Of a stretch of DNA of 64,000 bases, positions 11,118-42,517 are shown piece by piece (position 1 is the stretch's first letter; the number at the start of each line of letters is the position of its first letter). The position numbers and the translations under genes are program-made. The notes beneath the pieces are model-generated. The model made no database searches and was not told where the DNA came from. It worked only from the letters and a program-made list of their open reading frames with translations. The DNA is taken from positions 1 to 64,000 of the forward strand of contig QQUE01000006.1 in assembly GCA_008501765.1 (NCBI GenBank). Direction: 5' to 3'. This DNA is from Calditrichota bacterium (GTDB taxonomy: Bacteria > Zhuqueibacterota > Zhuqueibacteria > Zhuqueibacterales > Geothermadaptataceae).

Positions 11118-11246
11118 ATGGGACTGGAGCGAGCTTAACCCGGACACGAGGCTACCACTTTCATGGAGAAAATGTGAGACGAAGAACAGTGATGTCGGAC
11201 TACTACAAAGAGGATGGAATAATCTTATTCTGATTAAAACAAATAG

Positions 11247-11341
11247 CGGGAACGTGTGGGAATCGAACCCACCTGCCCGGGCAGAACCAGGACACAACGG
11301 TTTTGAAGACCGCGGCCACCACCAGGTGTGCATGCGCTCCC
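11247..11341 (-). tRNA. selC: tRNA-Sec (selenocysteine, anticodon UCA)
   Basis: The minus strand folds as a selenocysteine tRNA. The anticodon loop CTTCAAA gives UCA, and the anticodon stem pairs CGGT with ACCG. The extra arm is long (TTGTGTCCTGGTTCTGCCCGGGCAG region) and the T arm is GTGGG-TTCGATT-CCCAC. The acceptor stem pairs GGGAGCG with CGTTCCC, with one G-U pair and a C-A mismatch at the eighth position. The discriminator is G and CCA is not encoded. The length of 95 bases is close to bacterial selC. It lies 85 bp after pdxB in the same direction as selB, which strongly supports the call. Confidence 0.92.
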
Positions 11342-12612: not shown

Positions 12613-13317
12613 TTATGCCTGTTTTTTGTGCAGTGAAATTTTATGGTCTCTCGCGATGATCCAGTAGCCCAGCCAAATACATATAAGCCCGATAAATTCT
12701 GTGATATAGAGTATTTCAACAAAATCAGCACGGGCAGAAGCACCGCCAATCCCGGGGAGTAATCCACCGATTGCAATAAAAACATTGCCGCTGAAACGGT
12801 TTTTAAATTTATCGCCCAATTTCCAATATTTCCAGGCTGACCAGGCAGCGCCACCGACGAGGAAAATGAAGGCGAAGCCATTGATAAATGGTGAAAATAA
12901 CCGGACCCATTGCCACTGCAACACTTTGCCGGAGAGCCGCGTCATTTCAACCTGCTCATATAAAATTGGGGATAAACTGACGCAAATGCTGGCGATAATA
13001 ATCAGTGATATCACGGCGACCATCCAGCGGTGGGCGGCTGAATCGTTCATCAATAAATAAACAGTCCCGAGGGCCAATGGTGCCCCACCGAGTAATGCAC
13101 CGCTGATGTACCACATTTTGAAAACAATAACATTCCAGCCAAACAGTGTTGTGAGACTTTCTACTAAGGTCCCGAGGCCAAAGGCGACGACACCGATAAA
13201 CCACCAAAATAAGTAAAGCGCCTCCGGTTTTTGCCGCCAGTGTTTCCACATTTTCAGGCTGAAAAAGACTGCGATTATAGTTGTAAAAATAGGGATGTAA
13301 TGGATAGGGTTGTTCAT
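12613..13317 (-). CDS. Seven-helix membrane protein of unknown function
   Basis: The 234 residues contain about seven hydrophobic helices, at approximately 7-22, 38-56, 67-89, 98-117, 144-162, 177-196 and 205-223. The tail is short and Lys-rich (KISLHKKQA). I recognise no catalytic motif or family. The start codon overlaps the selB stop by 4 bp, so it is probably translationally coupled to selB. pdxB follows 40 bp later. Co-location with selB and tRNA-Sec is the only hint of a role, and it is weak. Confidence 0.75.
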   Translation of the reverse strand: MNNPIHYIPIFTTIIAVFFSLKMWKHWRQKPEALYLFWWFIGVVAFGLGTLVESLTTLFGWNVIVFKMWYISGALLGGAPLALGTVYLLMNDSAAHRWMVAVISLIIIASICVSLSPILYEQVEMTRLSGKVLQWQWVRLFSPFINGFAFIFLVGGAAWSAWKYWKLGDKFKNRFSGNVFIAIGGLLPGIGGASARADFVEILYITEFIGLICIWLGYWIIARDHKISLHKKQA

Positions 13318-15233
13318 TCTTCAGCTCCAATTCCAGGGTAGCGAACGTCGCCATCGCGGCTGGTCACTTCAATTGAATCAAAATAATTGAGCAGTGGCAG
13401 GGCATATTTACGGGTGGCATCGTCGATTAATGTTTTAAATTCAGAAATAGTAATTTTATCGTTTTTTTGAAAATAGTGGATTAAATTTTCTTTGGCGATT
13501 GCAACGGGTTTTTGGTGAAAATAAAAATCATTGCTGAGGCGCAGCACAGTCTTTTCAACCACGAGGAGATTCAACAGGGCCGCAACCGCTTCCGGTTTGA
13601 TATTGAAATGACCCGCTAATTCATCCACTGATGATGGGCTAAACCGGTCTTGCAGGAGTTTGGTGGCAATCTCATTCTTTAAATCTTTCTGTTGATCTGA
13701 AAGTGAAATTTCGAATGCGGCCAGGGCGATAAATCCGGCTCTTTCGCGCACTTTGTTCTCTGCAACCATTTTTTCGATGGCGAATTGGGTGAATTGCGGT
13801 GATAAATTTTTATCCAGTTTTTGCGCTAATTCGGCTTTGCTATAGCCGATCTGAATAGGATTTTTCTCGTGAAATTCAAGCAGGAGCTGGTTAATCCGCT
13901 GCCAGGATTGCTGGTAGCGAACCGTGTGCGCCAATCCTTTTTTGCTAATTCGCAGGAGAATCTGCTGCTTCTCCAATGTGGCTATCGCATCGGCGACTAT
14001 ATTTTCTGCCAACCCTGTTCTCGAAACAACTTCCTGATTGGTCATTATTCCGGAAGCAACGCGTAAAAATTGTTCTTGGACAAGTTCGGCCGGATCTTCT
14101 TTTTCCAGAGATTGCAGGCGTTGCATCGTTTCACTGAGATGTTTTTTCTGCAGCAATCCCGGTTGTGTATCGAGAATGACGCCCCCACCAATGGTGAACA
14201 TCGGTGAGTATTGGCGCACGACAAATAAATCGAGCCGCCGTGCTGCAATTGGTTTTTCCAGTGTTATCTGCACAAAACAGGTGGCTCCCGCCGTAATTTT
14301 GTGCCCCTGCAATGGCCGAATCCGGCCCATAATTTCAGCCGTGCCAAGGTGAATGCGCACGCGGGCATTGGATTTCAAGTCGGGACTGCTTTTAAGCAGC
14401 GTCACTTTGCCCTGAATTTTTTTTGATGCTTTGAACAGGGCTGGCGCCGCAAGCACATCGCCCCGTGCGATTTCGTCTTTCGTTAAGCCATGCAAGTTGA
14501 TCGCCGCCCGGTCACCACTTTTTGCATTTTCTACTGCAGAACTGTGTTTTTGGATGCCACGAACACGGCTTTTTTTGCCTTGTGGCAGGAGTTCGATTTC
14601 ATCTCCCGTGTGTAAAACGCCGGAAAGAATGGACCCGGTAACCACCGTCCCAAAACCTTTCATTGAAAAACTGCGATCGACCGGCATCCAGAAAACGCCG
14701 CGGTCGTGGCGCGGTGGTAATTTTTCCAATGTTGTATCAATTGTTTTTTTCAGCTCGGGAATGCCATTGCCGGAAATGGATGAAACCCGCAACAGCGGGG
14801 CTTTTTCGAGGCAGGTGCCGATCAGCAGATTTTTGACATCATCTTCCACTAACTCGATCCAGTCGGACTCAACGAGATCTGTTTTATTTATAACTACGAT
14901 GCCTTTGCGGATTTGCAAAATATTGAGAATATCCAAATGTTCCCGGGTTTGCGGCATCACGCCGTCGTCGGCTGCGATAACGAATAGCACCAGGTCGATG
15001 GTTGAGACGCCGGCAACCATATTTTTCACGAATTTTTCGTGCCCGGGCACATCGATGATTGTGGCATTTTCTCCGTAATGCGCGAAACCAATATCGATTG
15101 TCAAACCGCGGGCTTGCTCTTCTTTTAAGCGGTCGGTGTTGGTTCCGGTGAGCGCTTTTACGAGCGCCGTTTTGCCGTGGTCGATATGCCCGGCCGTTCC
15201 GATGATGAAATGCTGTTTTGTATCACCAGCCAC
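13314..15233 (-). CDS. selB: Selenocysteine-specific elongation factor SelB
   Basis: SelB delivers Sec-tRNA to UGA codons that carry a SECIS hairpin. The GTPase domain has G1 [14 protein letters not shown]3 [11 protein letters not shown]4 VINKTDLV and a Ser-rich G5 (SSISGNG). Domains II and III include the typical [15 protein letters not shown]. The C-terminal third (about 380-639) is built from winged helices that bind the SECIS element. Length is 639 residues, normal for bacterial SelB. With tRNA-Sec at 11247-11341 it shows the organism decodes UGA as selenocysteine. selA and selD are not in the window. Confidence 0.95.
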
Positions 15234-18995: not shown

Positions 18996-20750
18996 CTATC
19001 TCAATAAAATAACACCCTGTTTTTCATATGCATCGCTTTTATTTTTGGAATAGGCTTTGTGTCCATTTATAAATACATATTCCGGCTCATTCACTTTAAG
19101 GCCCGATTGGGATTTATCCAATTTGTAAACAACCAGGTCCGCGAAATCATTAATTCGAATCCGTCCCCGTCCCAACAGTCCTTTTTTGAGAAAAAGTTGG
19201 GAATGCTTTGTCGTGTCATATTCGTTGAGTAAATCGGCCCAATTTTTTTCGGCCAGAATGGCTTTTGCACAGAATTGTGGCCGGTGAAGCCAATGGACAA
19301 TTTTTTCTGTCAGCGGGTGGTATTGCGAATGAGTATTTTCATGCAAAAGCACTGCGATGGCACCATCAGCCAGAGCGTCACCCAACACGGTAGCTTGTTC
19401 ATTTAAGGAGATATCGGCTAAGGTATCCATCGACACTACGAATGCAATATTGATCCTCAATGCTTGGTTGGCGAGCCTGTCCATTTTCGTTTTCAGGCGT
19501 TTATTTGGTTGCAGATCATATTCTACCAGTAGTGTCGTGTATCCACGTTGCAAATATTCATTGACAAAATTATCATCAAGAAAACAATCTCCACAATCAG
19601 CGGGAAGCAATCCGATTAATCCGGGTACCACAAGCAGATCGGCGCCATCGATTTCTTTTTTTGCTGTAAATGAGTGCATGTCGCCAAGGTCCGTAAAAAC
19701 ACCCTGTTGTTTGACCTCTCCGTTGTGCGTGGATTCGACAAAATTAACACCTAAATCACACTTAAAAGGATCCGGATTGATTCCATCGATGATTTTTGCC
19801 CCTTTTATCAACAAATCAAAAAGCTCTTTGTCATACAACGGCAGGGCATCATATAAACCAGGATTGGCTTGTTTGTAAGTTTCGGTAGCGATGGCATGGC
19901 AGGCTTCAAGAATCGCAATAAAATTGAGTTTGACCAAAAATTCCGGCCCTTCATCATACCACCCGCCCGTTTCAAGCAGAACGGTTCGCATGCCCCACGA
20001 TTGAAAATTATCACCAAATGCCGCCGGCATAAAATCCGCGTCGTAACGGGAAATATGCTCATAAATATACGGTGATAAAGCCTGTTGCATTACTGAAGCA
20101 ATGCGTTTGGCTTCGATTCGGCTGGGGCTGTTGTTGTCATTTTCGTCAAAGGGCGGTACCATGAGCGCGATTGCAATTAATTTATTGGTGCCGTCAATTG
20201 TGCGGCGGCCATTCATATCGTGCAAATTGAATCCAAAATCCGGTCGCAATCGATCATGCAAAGATTTTAAAATGCGGCTCTCCGGTGTGGCCAGTTCCCG
20301 CGCATCACGATTGAGATCGAGCCCTTGTGCGTTGCGCCGCAAGAAAACTTCGGCGCCATCGGGATTGAGCATGGGTATAAAATGAATAGTGACACCTTGC
20401 AGAATTTCCTGGACAAAAGGGTGTTCTTTTTCCTGGAGAAGAAAATTGAAAATGTCAACCAGCGCGTTCGTGGCCGTCGGTTCGTTCCCGTGCATTTGCG
20501 ACCACATCATAATTGAGCGTGTCCCGGTGCCCATCGTTACGTGGTAAATACTGCGGTTCTCAACAGATTCCCCCAGAAAATCGAGCTTAAAATCATTGGG
20601 ATAATCCTGGGCAAATTTCTGTAGATAATTGATTAATTGTTTATGTTTAAGGGTGTGCGGTTTCTCTGGAGAAATTTTATATTTATTAAAAAAACCGGAA
20701 AGTTCTGCATGGTAGAAGTCAATTCGGTTTGGAATTGCAATTGGATTCAT
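18996..20750 (-). CDS. M14 zinc carboxypeptidase fused to a degenerate amidohydrolase-like half
   Basis: Residues 1-300 are an M14 metallocarboxypeptidase. Zinc ligands are His87 and Glu90 in QMHGNEPT and His177 in NLHDMNG, and the catalytic Glu260 lies in LLETGGW. Residues about 310-584 are not part of M14. They start FDLLIKGAKIIDG (311-323) and end with GRGRIRINDFADLVVY followed by VFINGHKAY. These match the first and last segments of the amidohydrolase encoded just upstream. Where that enzyme has GFIDIHGH, this protein has GLIGLLPA, so the HxH metal site is missing, and the barrel part is much shorter than normal. No signal peptide is seen. The gene starts 51 bp after the deacylase gene and is probably cotranscribed. 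Confidence 0.85.
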   Translation of the reverse strand: MNPIAIPNRIDFYHAELSGFFNKYKISPEKPHTLKHKQLINYLQKFAQDYPNDFKLDFLGESVENRSIYHVTMGTGTRSIMMWSQMHGNEPTATNALVDIFNFLLQEKEHPFVQEILQGVTIHFIPMLNPDGAEVFLRRNAQGLDLNRDARELATPESRILKSLHDRLRPDFGFNLHDMNGRRTIDGTNKLIAIALMVPPFDENDNNSPSRIEAKRIASVMQQALSPYIYEHISRYDADFMPAAFGDNFQSWGMRTVLLETGGWYDEGPEFLVKLNFIAILEACHAIATETYKQANPGLYDALPLYDKELFDLLIKGAKIIDGINPDPFKCDLGVNFVESTHNGEVKQQGVFTDLGDMHSFTAKKEIDGADLLVVPGLIGLLPADCGDCFLDDNFVNEYLQRGYTTLLVEYDLQPNKRLKTKMDRLANQALRINIAFVVSMDTLADISLNEQATVLGDALADGAIAVLLHENTHSQYHPLTEKIVHWLHRPQFCAKAILAEKNWADLLNEYDTTKHSQLFLKKGLLGRGRIRINDFADLVVYKLDKSQSGLKVNEPEYVFINGHKAYSKNKSDAYEKQGVILLR

Positions 20751-24845: not shown

Positions 24846-25628
24846 ATGGCGAACGAAAATAAACAAAAAATTCTGACCGTCGTACGCGAGAATTATGCTG
24901 AAATTGCAAAAGCTGAAGGAAGCGGTTGTTGCGGTGGTGGTCAAAATAAAGTCGATCCAATCCAGATTTCCAAAAATCTGGGGTATTCGCAGGCCGAAGT
25001 TGACGCCATCCCGGAAGGCGCGAATATGGGCCTTGGTTGCGGAAATCCGCAAGCGATCGCCTCTTTGAAAACCGGTGAAACTGTGCTCGATCTTGGCTGT
25101 GGCGGCGGATTTGATTGTTTTCTCGCTGCCCAATCTGTCGGCGAAACAGGCACCGTTATCGGTGTCGATATGACGCCGGAAATGATCGCAAAATCGCGTG
25201 CCAACGCGGAAAAAGCGGGCTCAAATCAGGTTCAATTTCGATTGGGTGAAATAGAGCACTTGCCGGTTGCGGACAATTCCATCGACGTAATTATGTCCAA
25301 TTGCGTCATTAATTTATCCCCGGACAAGCAGCAAGTTTACAACGAAGCCTTGCGCGTTCTCAAGCCGGGCGGGCGGCTGGCTATTTCTGATATTGTTGCA
25401 ACCGTCGAGCTTCCGGAAGAAGTCCGTGAAAATATGGATCTCTATTCGGCGTGTATCGCCGGGGCCTCTTTGCTTGATGATTTATCTGCGATGTTGAAAA
25501 ATGCTGGATTTATCGATATTCGGATCGAACCGCAGGAAGCCAGCAGGGAATTTATCAAAGAATGGGTGCCGGGGAGCAGCGTCGATGATTATTTGGTATC
25601 TGCGAGCATTCAGGCGACGAAACCCTGA
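24846..25628 (+). CDS. arsM: Arsenite S-adenosylmethyltransferase
   Basis: ArsM methylates trivalent arsenic with SAM, a detoxification step in the cytoplasm. The 260 residues carry motif I VLDLGCGGGFDCFLA and VIGVDMTPEM. The three arsenic-binding cysteines of the family are present as Cys65 (GLGCGNP), Cys153 (MSNCVINL) and Cys203 (YSACIAGA). An N-terminal SGCCGGG is common in bacterial ArsM. A good ribosome site (GGAG) precedes the ATG. No arsR, arsB or arsC is adjacent, so regulation is not visible. Confidence 0.93.
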   Translation: MANENKQKILTVVRENYAEIAKAEGSGCCGGGQNKVDPIQISKNLGYSQAEVDAIPEGANMGLGCGNPQAIASLKTGETVLDLGCGGGFDCFLAAQSVGETGTVIGVDMTPEMIAKSRANAEKAGSNQVQFRLGEIEHLPVADNSIDVIMSNCVINLSPDKQQVYNEALRVLKPGGRLAISDIVATVELPEEVRENMDLYSACIAGASLLDDLSAMLKNAGFIDIRIEPQEASREFIKEWVPGSSVDDYLVSASIQATKP

Positions 25629-39268: not shown

Positions 39269-42200
39269 ATGAAATGGCGTTGGTTGGTCTTCGCTTTAAT
39301 TTTAATTGGTTCTTTTGCCCAGGCTGAGGAGGCCCGCTTGTTGCGCTTTCCGGCCACAAATGACGATCAAATTGTATTCACTTTTGCCGGCGATTTGTAC
39401 ACAGTCAATATCGACGGCGGCGTGGCGCGCAAGCTGACTAACCACGATGGTTACGAAATGTTCGCCCGCTTTTCGCCGGATGGCAAAACGCTGGCTTTCA
39501 CCGGACAATACGACGGCAACACCGAAGTTTTTACCATGCCGGCAAGCGGCGGCTCGCCGCAACGTTTGACGTTCACCGCTACCCTCGGCCGCGACGATAT
39601 CGCCGACCGTATGGGGCCGAACAATATTGTTATGGCGTGGAAAAATGACGGCTCGCAAATCGCGTTTCGTTCGCGCATGCGTTCGTTCAACTCGTTTAAT
39701 GGCTCACTCTATCTCGTCGATTTAAAAGGCAATCTGCCGCAGGAAATTCCCGTCATGCGCGGTGGTTTTCTCTCCTTTTCACCGGACGATAAAAAGATGG
39801 CTTACAACCGCATCTTCCGTGAATTTCGTACCTGGAAAAGATACCGCGGCGGCATGGCTGACGAAGTGTGGGTCTTCGATTTTGCAACGAAAAAGATTGA
39901 AAATATTTCCAAGAACGAGGCGCAAGACATCATCCCAATGTGGATCGGCGACAAAATTTATTTTCTCTCCGACCGCGACAAGCGCTTCAACCTCTACGTT
40001 TACGATACAACGACCAAAACCACAACCAAGCTCACCAATTATACCGAATTCGATATCAAGTTTCCTTCCGCAGGCAAGGAAAATATCGTTTATGAAAACG
40101 GTGGTTTTATCTACAAATTTAATCTGGCCAGCGGCCAGGCTACCAAAGTAAATATTACAATTGCTGAAGACATGTTGAGCAGCCGCAGGGCCATTCTCAA
40201 AGCCAAAGAAAATATCACCAATTTCGAAATTGCACCCGATGGTAAACGCGCGCTTTTCGGCGCCCGTGGCGATGTTTTCACCGTGCCGGCAAAAGAAGGT
40301 TTGACCTACAATCTCACACAAACACCGGCGGTGCACGAGCGCAATTCCAAATGGTCGCCGGACGGGCAATGGATTGCTTATATTTCCGACCAAACTGGTG
40401 AAGATGAGATTTTTATGCGCAAAGCCGACGGCTCCGATAAACCTGTGCAGGTGACGAAAAATGCAGAAACTTACAAGTATCAAATGTATTGGTCGCCCGA
40501 CAGCAAAAAATTGCTCTGGGCTGATCGCAAGCAGCGCTTGCGTTTCATCGATGTCGCCTCGAAGACAGTGACCGAAGTTGTGCAGGCAACAGCGTGGGAA
40601 GTCCGCAATTACACCTGGTCGCCAGACAGCAAGTGGATTGCCTACACATTTCCCGAAGAAGAGGTGATGAACCGAATTTATATGTACTCAGTCGCCTCCG
40701 GAAAATCAACTCCTGTTACCGACGGCTGGTATTCTTCCGGCAATGCAGCTTTCAGCTCGGATGGAAAATACCTGCTTTTCACCTCCAACCGCGATTTTTC
40801 CCCATCGTACAGTTGGACGGAGTGGAACCATTCGTACCAGGATATGGCAAAGGTCTATCTCGTAACGCTCGACAAAAACACACCTTCGCCATTCGCGCCT
40901 GAAAATGACACCGTGGCTGTGAAAAAAGACGAGAAAAAAGCGGATGCCAAATCTAAAAAAGAAGAGAAGAAAAAGGAAACGCCCAAAATCACAAAGGTTG
41001 ATTTGGACGGAATTCTCGATCGCATCGTCGTGTTGCCTGTCGAAGCATCGCGCTATTTTAACCTGGGCGCTGTCGGATCGAAGGTGTATTACAACCGCAA
41101 TGGTTCCGACGATAAAAAAACAGTGCTGATGTTATATGATCTCGAAAAAGAGAAAGAAACCGAGCTGGGAAATATCAACGGCTACGAATTTTCGGCTGAT
41201 TTTAAGAAAATGCTGGTGGTTGCAAATGGCAGTTATGCAATTATCGATTTGCCCTCCGGAACTATAAAAATGGATGAAAAACTCGACGTCTCAAATATGG
41301 AGTACGTGGCAGATTATCAGGCCGAATGGCAGCAGATTTTCACTGAATCCTGGCGGCAAATGCGCGAATTTTTCTACGTCCCCAATATGCACGGTTTAGA
41401 CTGGGAAGCTGTTCGGGTTAAATATCAGCCGCTGGTAAAATATGCGCACCATCGCAATGATTTGACCTACATTATTGGTGAAATGATTGGTGAATTGAAC
41501 GTCGGGCACGCCTACGTTGGCGGCGGTGATCGACCGAAACCCGCCCGCATACAAACTGGATTGCTGGGCGCTGAATTGGCAAAAGACGGCTCCGGGTATT
41601 TTAAAATTACCAGGATTCTTAAAGGTGAAAATTGGACCGGAAACCGGAAATCGCCACTGACGGCAATCGGCGTTAACGCGAAAGAGGGCGAATATATTGT
41701 CGCAGTCAATGGTGTTTCGACTAAAAATATGGCCAATTTATTCATAGCGCTGGTTGGAAAAGCCGGAAAATCCGTGGAGTTGAGCCTGAATAGTCAGGCC
41801 GCCGAAGCCGGCAGCCGTAAAGTATTGGTTCAACCCATCGCAGACGAATCCGGGCTTTACTATTACAATTGGGTCAACGAGAATATTGCCAAAGTGAATA
41901 AAGCCACTGGCGGCAAAGTGGGTTACTTGCATATCCCCGATATGGGGCCGGGTGGATTGAATGAATTTGTAAAACGATTTTACCCGCAATTGCGCAAAAA
42001 AGCGTTGATCGTCGATGTGCGCGGCAATGGCGGCGGCAATGTTTCGCCGATGATTATCGAACGTCTGCGCCGGGAAGCGGTGATGATAAACGTCGCCAGA
42101 AACGCCTCGCCGGGTGTCAATCCAGGCTCGACGATTTACGGCCCGATTATTTGTCTCGCCGATGAATTCTCTGCCTCTGACGGCGATATTTTTGCATATC

Positions 42201-42517
42201 GCTTTAAAGAACACAAGCTCGGAAAAGTCGTTGGCAAGCGCACGTGGGGCGGGGTTGTCGGTATTCGTGGCTCACTGCCGTTCATCGACGGCGGCGATTT
42301 GCGCAAGCCTGAATTTTCCCGTTACGATCTCGAAGGCCAGAAATGGTTGATGGAAGGGTATGGCGTTGAACCGGATATTTTCGTCGATAATGATCCGCAC
42401 AAAGAATATCTCGGCGAAGACGAGCAACTCAACCGTGCCATCAGCGAGATTCTGCAAGATTTGGCAAATGAGGAGAAACAAATTCCTGGCAGGCCAGCGG
42501 CTCCAGATAAGAAATAA
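39269..42517 (+). CDS. Tricorn-type S41 serine protease
   Basis: The 1082-residue protein matches the tricorn protease architecture. A signal peptide (LVFALILIGSFAQA) is followed by two beta-propellers (about 25-310 and 315-570) with repeated FSPDGK and WSPDSK blades. A Lys/Glu-rich linker, helical C1 domain, PDZ domain (about 770-860) and C2 protease domain come next. The nucleophile is Ser970 in DEFSASDGDIF, close to Ser965 of the archaeal enzyme; GKRTWGGVVGIRG follows. Tricorn enzymes degrade peptides of about 6-12 residues to smaller products. A strong ribosome site AGAAGGAG lies 8 bp before the ATG. The signal peptide places this enzyme in the periplasm. Confidence 0.93.
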   Translation: MKWRWLVFALILIGSFAQAEEARLLRFPATNDDQIVFTFAGDLYTVNIDGGVARKLTNHDGYEMFARFSPDGKTLAFTGQYDGNTEVFTMPASGGSPQRLTFTATLGRDDIADRMGPNNIVMAWKNDGSQIAFRSRMRSFNSFNGSLYLVDLKGNLPQEIPVMRGGFLSFSPDDKKMAYNRIFREFRTWKRYRGGMADEVWVFDFATKKIENISKNEAQDIIPMWIGDKIYFLSDRDKRFNLYVYDTTTKTTTKLTNYTEFDIKFPSAGKENIVYENGGFIYKFNLASGQATKVNITIAEDMLSSRRAILKAKENITNFEIAPDGKRALFGARGDVFTVPAKEGLTYNLTQTPAVHERNSKWSPDGQWIAYISDQTGEDEIFMRKADGSDKPVQVTKNAETYKYQMYWSPDSKKLLWADRKQRLRFIDVASKTVTEVVQATAWEVRNYTWSPDSKWIAYTFPEEEVMNRIYMYSVASGKSTPVTDGWYSSGNAAFSSDGKYLLFTSNRDFSPSYSWTEWNHSYQDMAKVYLVTLDKNTPSPFAPENDTVAVKKDEKKADAKSKKEEKKKETPKITKVDLDGILDRIVVLPVEASRYFNLGAVGSKVYYNRNGSDDKKTVLMLYDLEKEKETELGNINGYEFSADFKKMLVVANGSYAIIDLPSGTIKMDEKLDVSNMEYVADYQAEWQQIFTESWRQMREFFYVPNMHGLDWEAVRVKYQPLVKYAHHRNDLTYIIGEMIGELNVGHAYVGGGDRPKPARIQTGLLGAELAKDGSGYFKITRILKGENWTGNRKSPLTAIGVNAKEGEYIVAVNGVSTKNMANLFIALVGKAGKSVELSLNSQAAEAGSRKVLVQPIADESGLYYYNWVNENIAKVNKATGGKVGYLHIPDMGPGGLNEFVKRFYPQLRKKALIVDVRGNGGGNVSPMIIERLRREAVMINVARNASPGVNPGSTIYGPIICLADEFSASDGDIFAYRFKEHKLGKVVGKRTWGGVVGIRGSLPFIDGGDLRKPEFSRYDLEGQKWLMEGYGVEPDIFVDNDPHKEYLGEDEQLNRAISEILQDLANEEKQIPGRPAAPDKK

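Follow-up and report, generated by a model that had tools for sequence, protein, structure and literature searches.

Amidohydrolases that have lost catalysis and are reused as scaffolds are known from the CRMP/DPYSL proteins and the pseudo-dihydroorotases, in which an amidohydrolase fold without metal site has a non-catalytic role and the whole barrel is kept. The active enzymes closest to the case described here are those of subtype V, i.e., D-aminoacylases, N-acyl-D-glutamate deacylase and PpOngB, all with a beta-domain made of two parts. In PpOngB this domain comprises residues 7–62 and 416–482 and the barrel residues 63–415; the metal ligands Cys97, His222 and His252 and the catalytic Asp368 are in the barrel, and the metal ligands and the substrate-contact residues all fall within the barrel or its insertion domain, 63–415 (PMC12017989). 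On the peptidase side, the M14 carboxypeptidases of the N/E type (for example domain II of carboxypeptidase D, 1qmu) carry a beta-rich, transthyretin-like domain directly after the M14 domain. Another M14 enzyme is MpaA, a murein tripeptide amidase. In the recycling of muropeptides by E. coli the tripeptides are made by LdcA, an S66 enzyme (PMC6448482), and to judge from titles referenced in the same paper they are cut by MpaA. Here we describe a protein that joins an M14 domain to an amidohydrolase tail in which, unlike in the CRMP/DPYSL proteins and pseudo-dihydroorotases, the barrel is mostly gone and the beta-domain has been retained.

The gene, P0001, is located at 18996..20750 on the minus strand of the window (the whole stretch of 64,000 nucleotides analysed, from a Calditrichota contig) and codes for 584 amino acids plus the stop. 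It is a genuine ORF, with the same architecture in orthologues of congeneric genomes at 73–77% identity, and the fusion is single copy in its own genome. The M14 peptidase domain (residues ~36–290, 19881..20645, minus strand) was detected by Pfam (PF00246, residues 40–149, E = 2.7e-20, 73.6 bits against a gathering threshold of 21.6), by phmmer against the PDB (carboxypeptidases D/N) and by Foldseek with the full-length AF2 model (pLDDT 80.8), which matched M14 structures with E-values down to 1e-15. The zinc ligands H87 and E90 of the HxxE motif (20481..20492), the third zinc ligand H177 (20220..20222) and the catalytic glutamate E260 (19971..19973), all on the minus strand, were invariant in a first alignment of 13 sequences, and the corresponding HxxE, His and Glu motifs were present in 87 of the 87 family members checked. 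P0001 is apparently an active M14 zinc carboxypeptidase. It has in common with the N/E-type carboxypeptidases the M14 fold, the catalytic residues and a beta domain placed directly after M14, and the best Foldseek matches to these enzymes reach beyond the M14 domain (409 columns). However, the beta domain of P0001 is of amidohydrolase origin and interrupted by a barrel remnant instead of being transthyretin-like, and the orientation of the domains differs (rmsd ~21 Å over the joint alignment). The only NCBIfam match in the M14 region was MpaA (NF007897), at 20.1 bits far under the equivalog cut-off of 157, and the MpaA model, of 237 amino acids, has no tail of the P0001 type.

The tail (residues 298–584, ~287 residues) is homologous to D-aminoacylase-type amidohydrolases. 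The N-terminal half of its beta-domain (residues 305–376, 19623..19838, minus strand) was delimited by BLASTP to P0002, the neighbouring deacylase gene, by searching the PDB with a profile of the tail and by the AF2 strands, and the C-terminal half (ADLVVY...VFINGHKAY, residues 536–584, 18999..19145, minus strand) by BLASTP and by the match of the profile to PpOngB 402–471. Between them is a shrunken barrel remnant of ~4–5 beta-alpha units, as seen in the AF2 secondary structure (residues 377–535, 19146..19622, minus strand). The alignment with the neighbouring deacylase that had been proposed by eye in a sequence-only reading of this DNA was recovered by BLASTP as two colinear blocks, tail 311–412 against P0002 31–119 (26% identity, E = 1e-8) and tail 524–582 against P0002 486–550 (E = 0.004). 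The profile, built from 11 long-type tails, matched PpOngB (8.8e-17), D-aminoacylases (4.7e-16) and N-acyl-D-glutamate deacylase (3gip, 4.3e-10) in the PDB. Weaker matches were to ureases, allantoinases and further proteins of amidohydrolase type, and all of the 60 matches listed were of this kind. In PpOngB it covered residues 10–95 and 402–471, that is, both beta halves plus beta1-beta2. In single-sequence Pfam searches the P0001 tail had no amidohydrolase match, and 5 of 11 orthologous tails matched Amidohydro_3 (best 1.2e-7). The model of the tail alone (pLDDT 73.5, pTM 0.76), built without P0002, showed like the full-length one a beta-domain interrupted by 4–5 beta-alpha units, and its best 50 Foldseek matches all belonged to the amidohydrolase superfamily, with a probability of 1.00 for the best (PpOngB 4.7e-9, dihydroorotase 5.3e-9, D-aminoacylase 1.7e-7). 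Both the fold comparison and the profile search that the sequence-only reading had named as possible refutations gave amidohydrolase matches, so neither an unrelated fold nor the lack of a significant profile match was found; as judged from profiles and predicted structure, the tail is an amidohydrolase homologue. The middle of the barrel remnant had no significant sequence match to amidohydrolases, only beta1-beta2 (to residue ~410) being aligned, and the rest is assigned to the barrel because of its position and predicted structure.

With the subtype V enzymes the tail shares the two-part beta-domain, beta1-beta2 of the barrel and their colinear order; unlike them, it keeps ~40% of the barrel, has lost HxH as well as the Cys/His/His/Asp set and sits behind an M14 domain. 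In the alignment with P0002 the motif PGFIDIHGH of the neighbour, which contains HxH, corresponds to PGLIGLLPA in P0001 (residues 376–384, 19599..19625, minus strand), confirming the replacement of GFIDIHGH by GLIGLLPA noticed earlier. The barrel cut to about half its length had also been anticipated: counted on the sequences using the P0001-P0002 BLASTP alignment, the GDM/GML and ADL/ADI strands are 179 residues apart in P0001 and 433 in P0002 (~41%). A complete (beta/alpha)8 barrel is absent from the tail, which has ~160 residues and 4–5 beta-alpha units there in the model. The Cys of the subtype V metal site is missing from the tail segment GYTTLLVEYD, and the later His-bearing strands have no aligned counterpart. 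We looked for an intact M14-amidohydrolase ancestor among the 87 members; a motif search found none with HxH at the beta1 site, and the sole HxH in any tail (SRHDHS, in L115) was located away from it. Since in PpOngB the ligands and substrate contacts are in residues 63–415, it is the catalytic part that has been lost and the beta-domain that has been kept. The view of P0001 as an M14 carboxypeptidase fused to a shrunken, metal-less amidohydrolase part is upheld by the Pfam match and by the profile and fold matches of the tail; that an M14 domain with an intact site is joined here to a dead scaffold is also confirmed, by the conserved M14 motifs and the disappearance of the metal ligands of the tail.

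A scan of genome contigs found the fusion in Calditrichota, Marinimicrobia, Ignavibacteriales and Bacteroidota. It was present in 10 of the 82 genomes of the window's phylum, in 5 of 199 Marinimicrobia genomes and in 121 of the 395 Bacteroidota genomes sampled (~30%). The family has no Pfam or NCBIfam name beyond M14, and a literature search limited to papers outside subscription gave no relevant description of an M14-amidohydrolase fusion; apparently, it is a widespread, undescribed protein family of Bacteroidota and their relatives. The distance between the two beta-halves is 166–178 residues in the long forms (Calditrichota, Marinimicrobia), ~82 in the mid forms of Bacteroidota (proteins of ~490 residues) and ~27 in the shortest forms still having both halves, while some members keep the front half only. 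The front of the beta-domain (the D, N and DxGDL columns) is conserved across phyla, including the shortest forms, and no member without any tail was found in the survey. A mid-type tail of Bacteroidota alone matched in the PDB just PpOngB, marginally (E = 0.034), so that it is recognised as a homologue by profile-profile comparison with the long tails (E = 1e-18 for mid, 6e-17 for short forms). In an M14-domain tree made by a quick method, with no bootstrap, the long forms group with the window's clade and the short state requires nine changes, at least seven of them forced by starred branches, L009 being counted as short solely because its contig ends. The direction is taken to be loss, since it would be implausible for pieces of a barrel to be gained time and again. 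On comparison of the sequences, the shrinkage of the barrel is a matter of repeated independent losses across the family. Two kinds of unusual members were also observed. In Marinimicrobia, L067:4139-5859 (minus strand) has the M14-tail gene in two overlapping frames (249 + 431 aa), by frameshift or sequencing error, and two Bacteroidota proteins of 575–613 aa (L102, L103) have a long low-complexity insert rich in Ser, Thr and Asp within the beta-domain.

The genes next to the fusion give some indication of its substrate. In one clade, five of the eight members have an upstream Amidase_2 gene that abuts the fusion or lies no more than 75 bp away, and in another an S66 LD-carboxypeptidase gene abuts it upstream in all three members (raw counts); this pathway context is a likeness to MpaA, and each association with a peptidoglycan gene is confined to one clade. 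In two Marinimicrobia (L006, L007) a GHL10 domain (PF02638, E ~1e-62), absent from P0001, is in the same ORF as the M14-tail unit. The denuded-glycan hydrolase DigH presumably belongs to this GHL10 family. Two genes downstream of the GHL10-M14-tail protein of L006 (L006:4354-7623), L006:9587-11485 has a similar N-terminal sequence. Other neighbours are neutral with regard to the substrate. By eye, sigma/anti-sigma-like genes were next to many Bacteroidota members and an Lrp-like gene was beside those of Flavobacteriaceae. In the Bacteroidota clade of L075, L087, L088 and L115 the start of the fusion gene is overlapped or directly adjoined by a gene for a dihydroorotase-like amidohydrolase, which makes two kinds of amidohydrolase partner for M14-tail genes. 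The window's own operon contains no peptidoglycan gene, except possibly P0002. It is the neighbourhoods and fusions of the relatives, and not this operon, that suggest, with moderate weight, that the family cuts cell-wall stem peptides, possibly in the recycling of cell-wall peptides. Elsewhere the window has a selenocysteine decoding system, with a tRNA-Sec (11246-11341, minus strand) and a SelB above its NCBIfam cut-off (13314-15233, minus strand). An arsenite methyltransferase-like gene (24846-25628, plus strand) is above the PRK11873 cut-off and has ArsM selenoprotein models as next matches, of interest beside the Sec system; at 39269-42517 (plus strand) there is a 1082-aa protein with matches to a TolB-like propeller and a C-terminal processing peptidase.

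P0002 (20802..22454, minus strand), outside the fusion and 51 bp upstream of it, is a D-aminoacylase-type amidohydrolase with a full-length match to D-aminoacylase 1m7j (E = 7e-82). It has an Asp where the zinc-ligand Cys is expected after beta2 (VVGQDGGS vs. VVTGNCGIS in D-aminoacylase) and keeps the His ligands and the catalytic Asp, so it is a possible metal-site variant. Its N-terminus resembles a twin-arginine lipoprotein signal (RRSFIKK...TAIAC), whereas by eye no signal peptide is present in P0001 and its relatives in the window's own family (f1), in contrast to most of the other long and mid relatives; because of this difference the two proteins are probably in different compartments. 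Derivation from this neighbour, on which the sequence-only reading had based a binding or regulatory role, was rejected as the default reading; P0002 is only slightly closer to the tail than unrelated solved D-aminoacylases. A module duplicated from the neighbouring gene and working with its product would account for the homology of the tail to P0002, for P0002 being the best amidohydrolase of its own genome against the tail profile (46.5 + 26 bits vs. 31 + 28 for a paralogue) and for the strict adjacency in f1 (all six genomes in which the flank was long enough). However, the solved D-aminoacylases score 62–64 bits, the predicted compartments differ and the residues that contact the substrate in the ancestral fold belong to the lost barrel. 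The survey of whether the fusion always adjoins a deacylase gene also answers in the negative. The fusion occurs widely with no deacylase gene beside it, an adjacent P0002 orthologue was found only in f1, and no D-aminoacylase gene was beside the fusion in the Bacteroidota loci examined. In G007 a relative is ~5 kb away, in f3 (G020, G021) the two genes are on separate contigs, and P0002-like genes occur in 51 of the phylum's 82 genomes, 41 of these having no fusion. We consider a duplication from the neighbour very improbable.

The reading to which we lean, with confidence only a little above even, is that of a putatively active M14 carboxypeptidase with a dead, eroding D-aminoacylase-type tail as structural module and murein stem peptide as likely substrate. 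A D-aminoacylase-type amidohydrolase would have been fused to M14 early in the history of the family; the tail has lost its metal site and its barrel is shrinking, as comparison of the sequences shows. The retained beta-domain would most likely be structural, packing against or positioning the M14 domain in a way analogous to the transthyretin-like domain that follows M14 in the N/E-type carboxypeptidases, and the likely substrate would be free peptidoglycan stem peptide, cleaved, in the manner of MpaA, at its meso-DAP end. Weighing against it are the window's operon, P0002 possibly excepted, the MpaA score far under the cut-off, the unmatched middle of the remnant and the restriction of each neighbour association to one clade, many members being located by sigma-factor or regulator genes. 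The same murein-recycling neighbours, the adjacency of a D-aminoacylase in f1 and the action of the tail's relatives on N-acyl-D-amino acids (3gip included) would also fit a bifunctional origin, with M14 freeing meso-DAP from the murein tripeptide, the D-aminoacylase splitting L-Ala-D-Glu and, after the decay of this second activity, P0002-like enzymes providing it in trans wherever it is required. No M14 fusion with an intact HxH barrel was found among the 87 members, though, so that the bifunctional ancestor is hypothetical, and P0001 and P0002 are probably separated; we find this origin unlikely. Erosion in length and poor conservation of the barrel remnant could indicate a functionless relic, a dead domain that is merely tolerated, but conservation of the beta-domain front extends across phyla and to the shortest forms, and no surveyed member is entirely tail-less, which makes a relic quite improbable. 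Likewise very improbable, and the least probable of all, is that the remodelled half-barrel of the long forms has a new catalytic or ligand site of its own. The ~160 residues of predicted beta-alpha units and the invariant P79 G80, G106 T108 and A240 D241 columns of the long-tail alignment would be in its favor, but these columns are structural and common to amidohydrolases, the same alignment has no conserved cluster of His, Cys or Glu in the remnant, and L008, of the same clade, has lost most of it.

The fusion brings known families together in a new domain architecture and is notable for the repeated loss of the barrel. In the neighbours of some relatives there are also hints of a peptidase for murein-peptide recycling in bacteria in which little of the recycling route has been mapped. 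A broader idea, that we put forward tentatively and regard as rather doubtful, is that this broad, undescribed family of the FCB group had as its ancestor a murein-peptide enzyme with two activities (M14 plus D-aminoacylase) in which the second site was lost and the barrel was repeatedly excised down to a bare beta-domain, recruited as accessory to M14. If this were true, the family would be a natural series of stepwise and parallel dismantling of a TIM barrel within living proteins. TIM barrels are usually retained or lost entire, whereas here there are graded intermediates (~175, 80 and 25 residues), reached several times independently, which makes the dismantling of a barrel and the re-use of domains testable.
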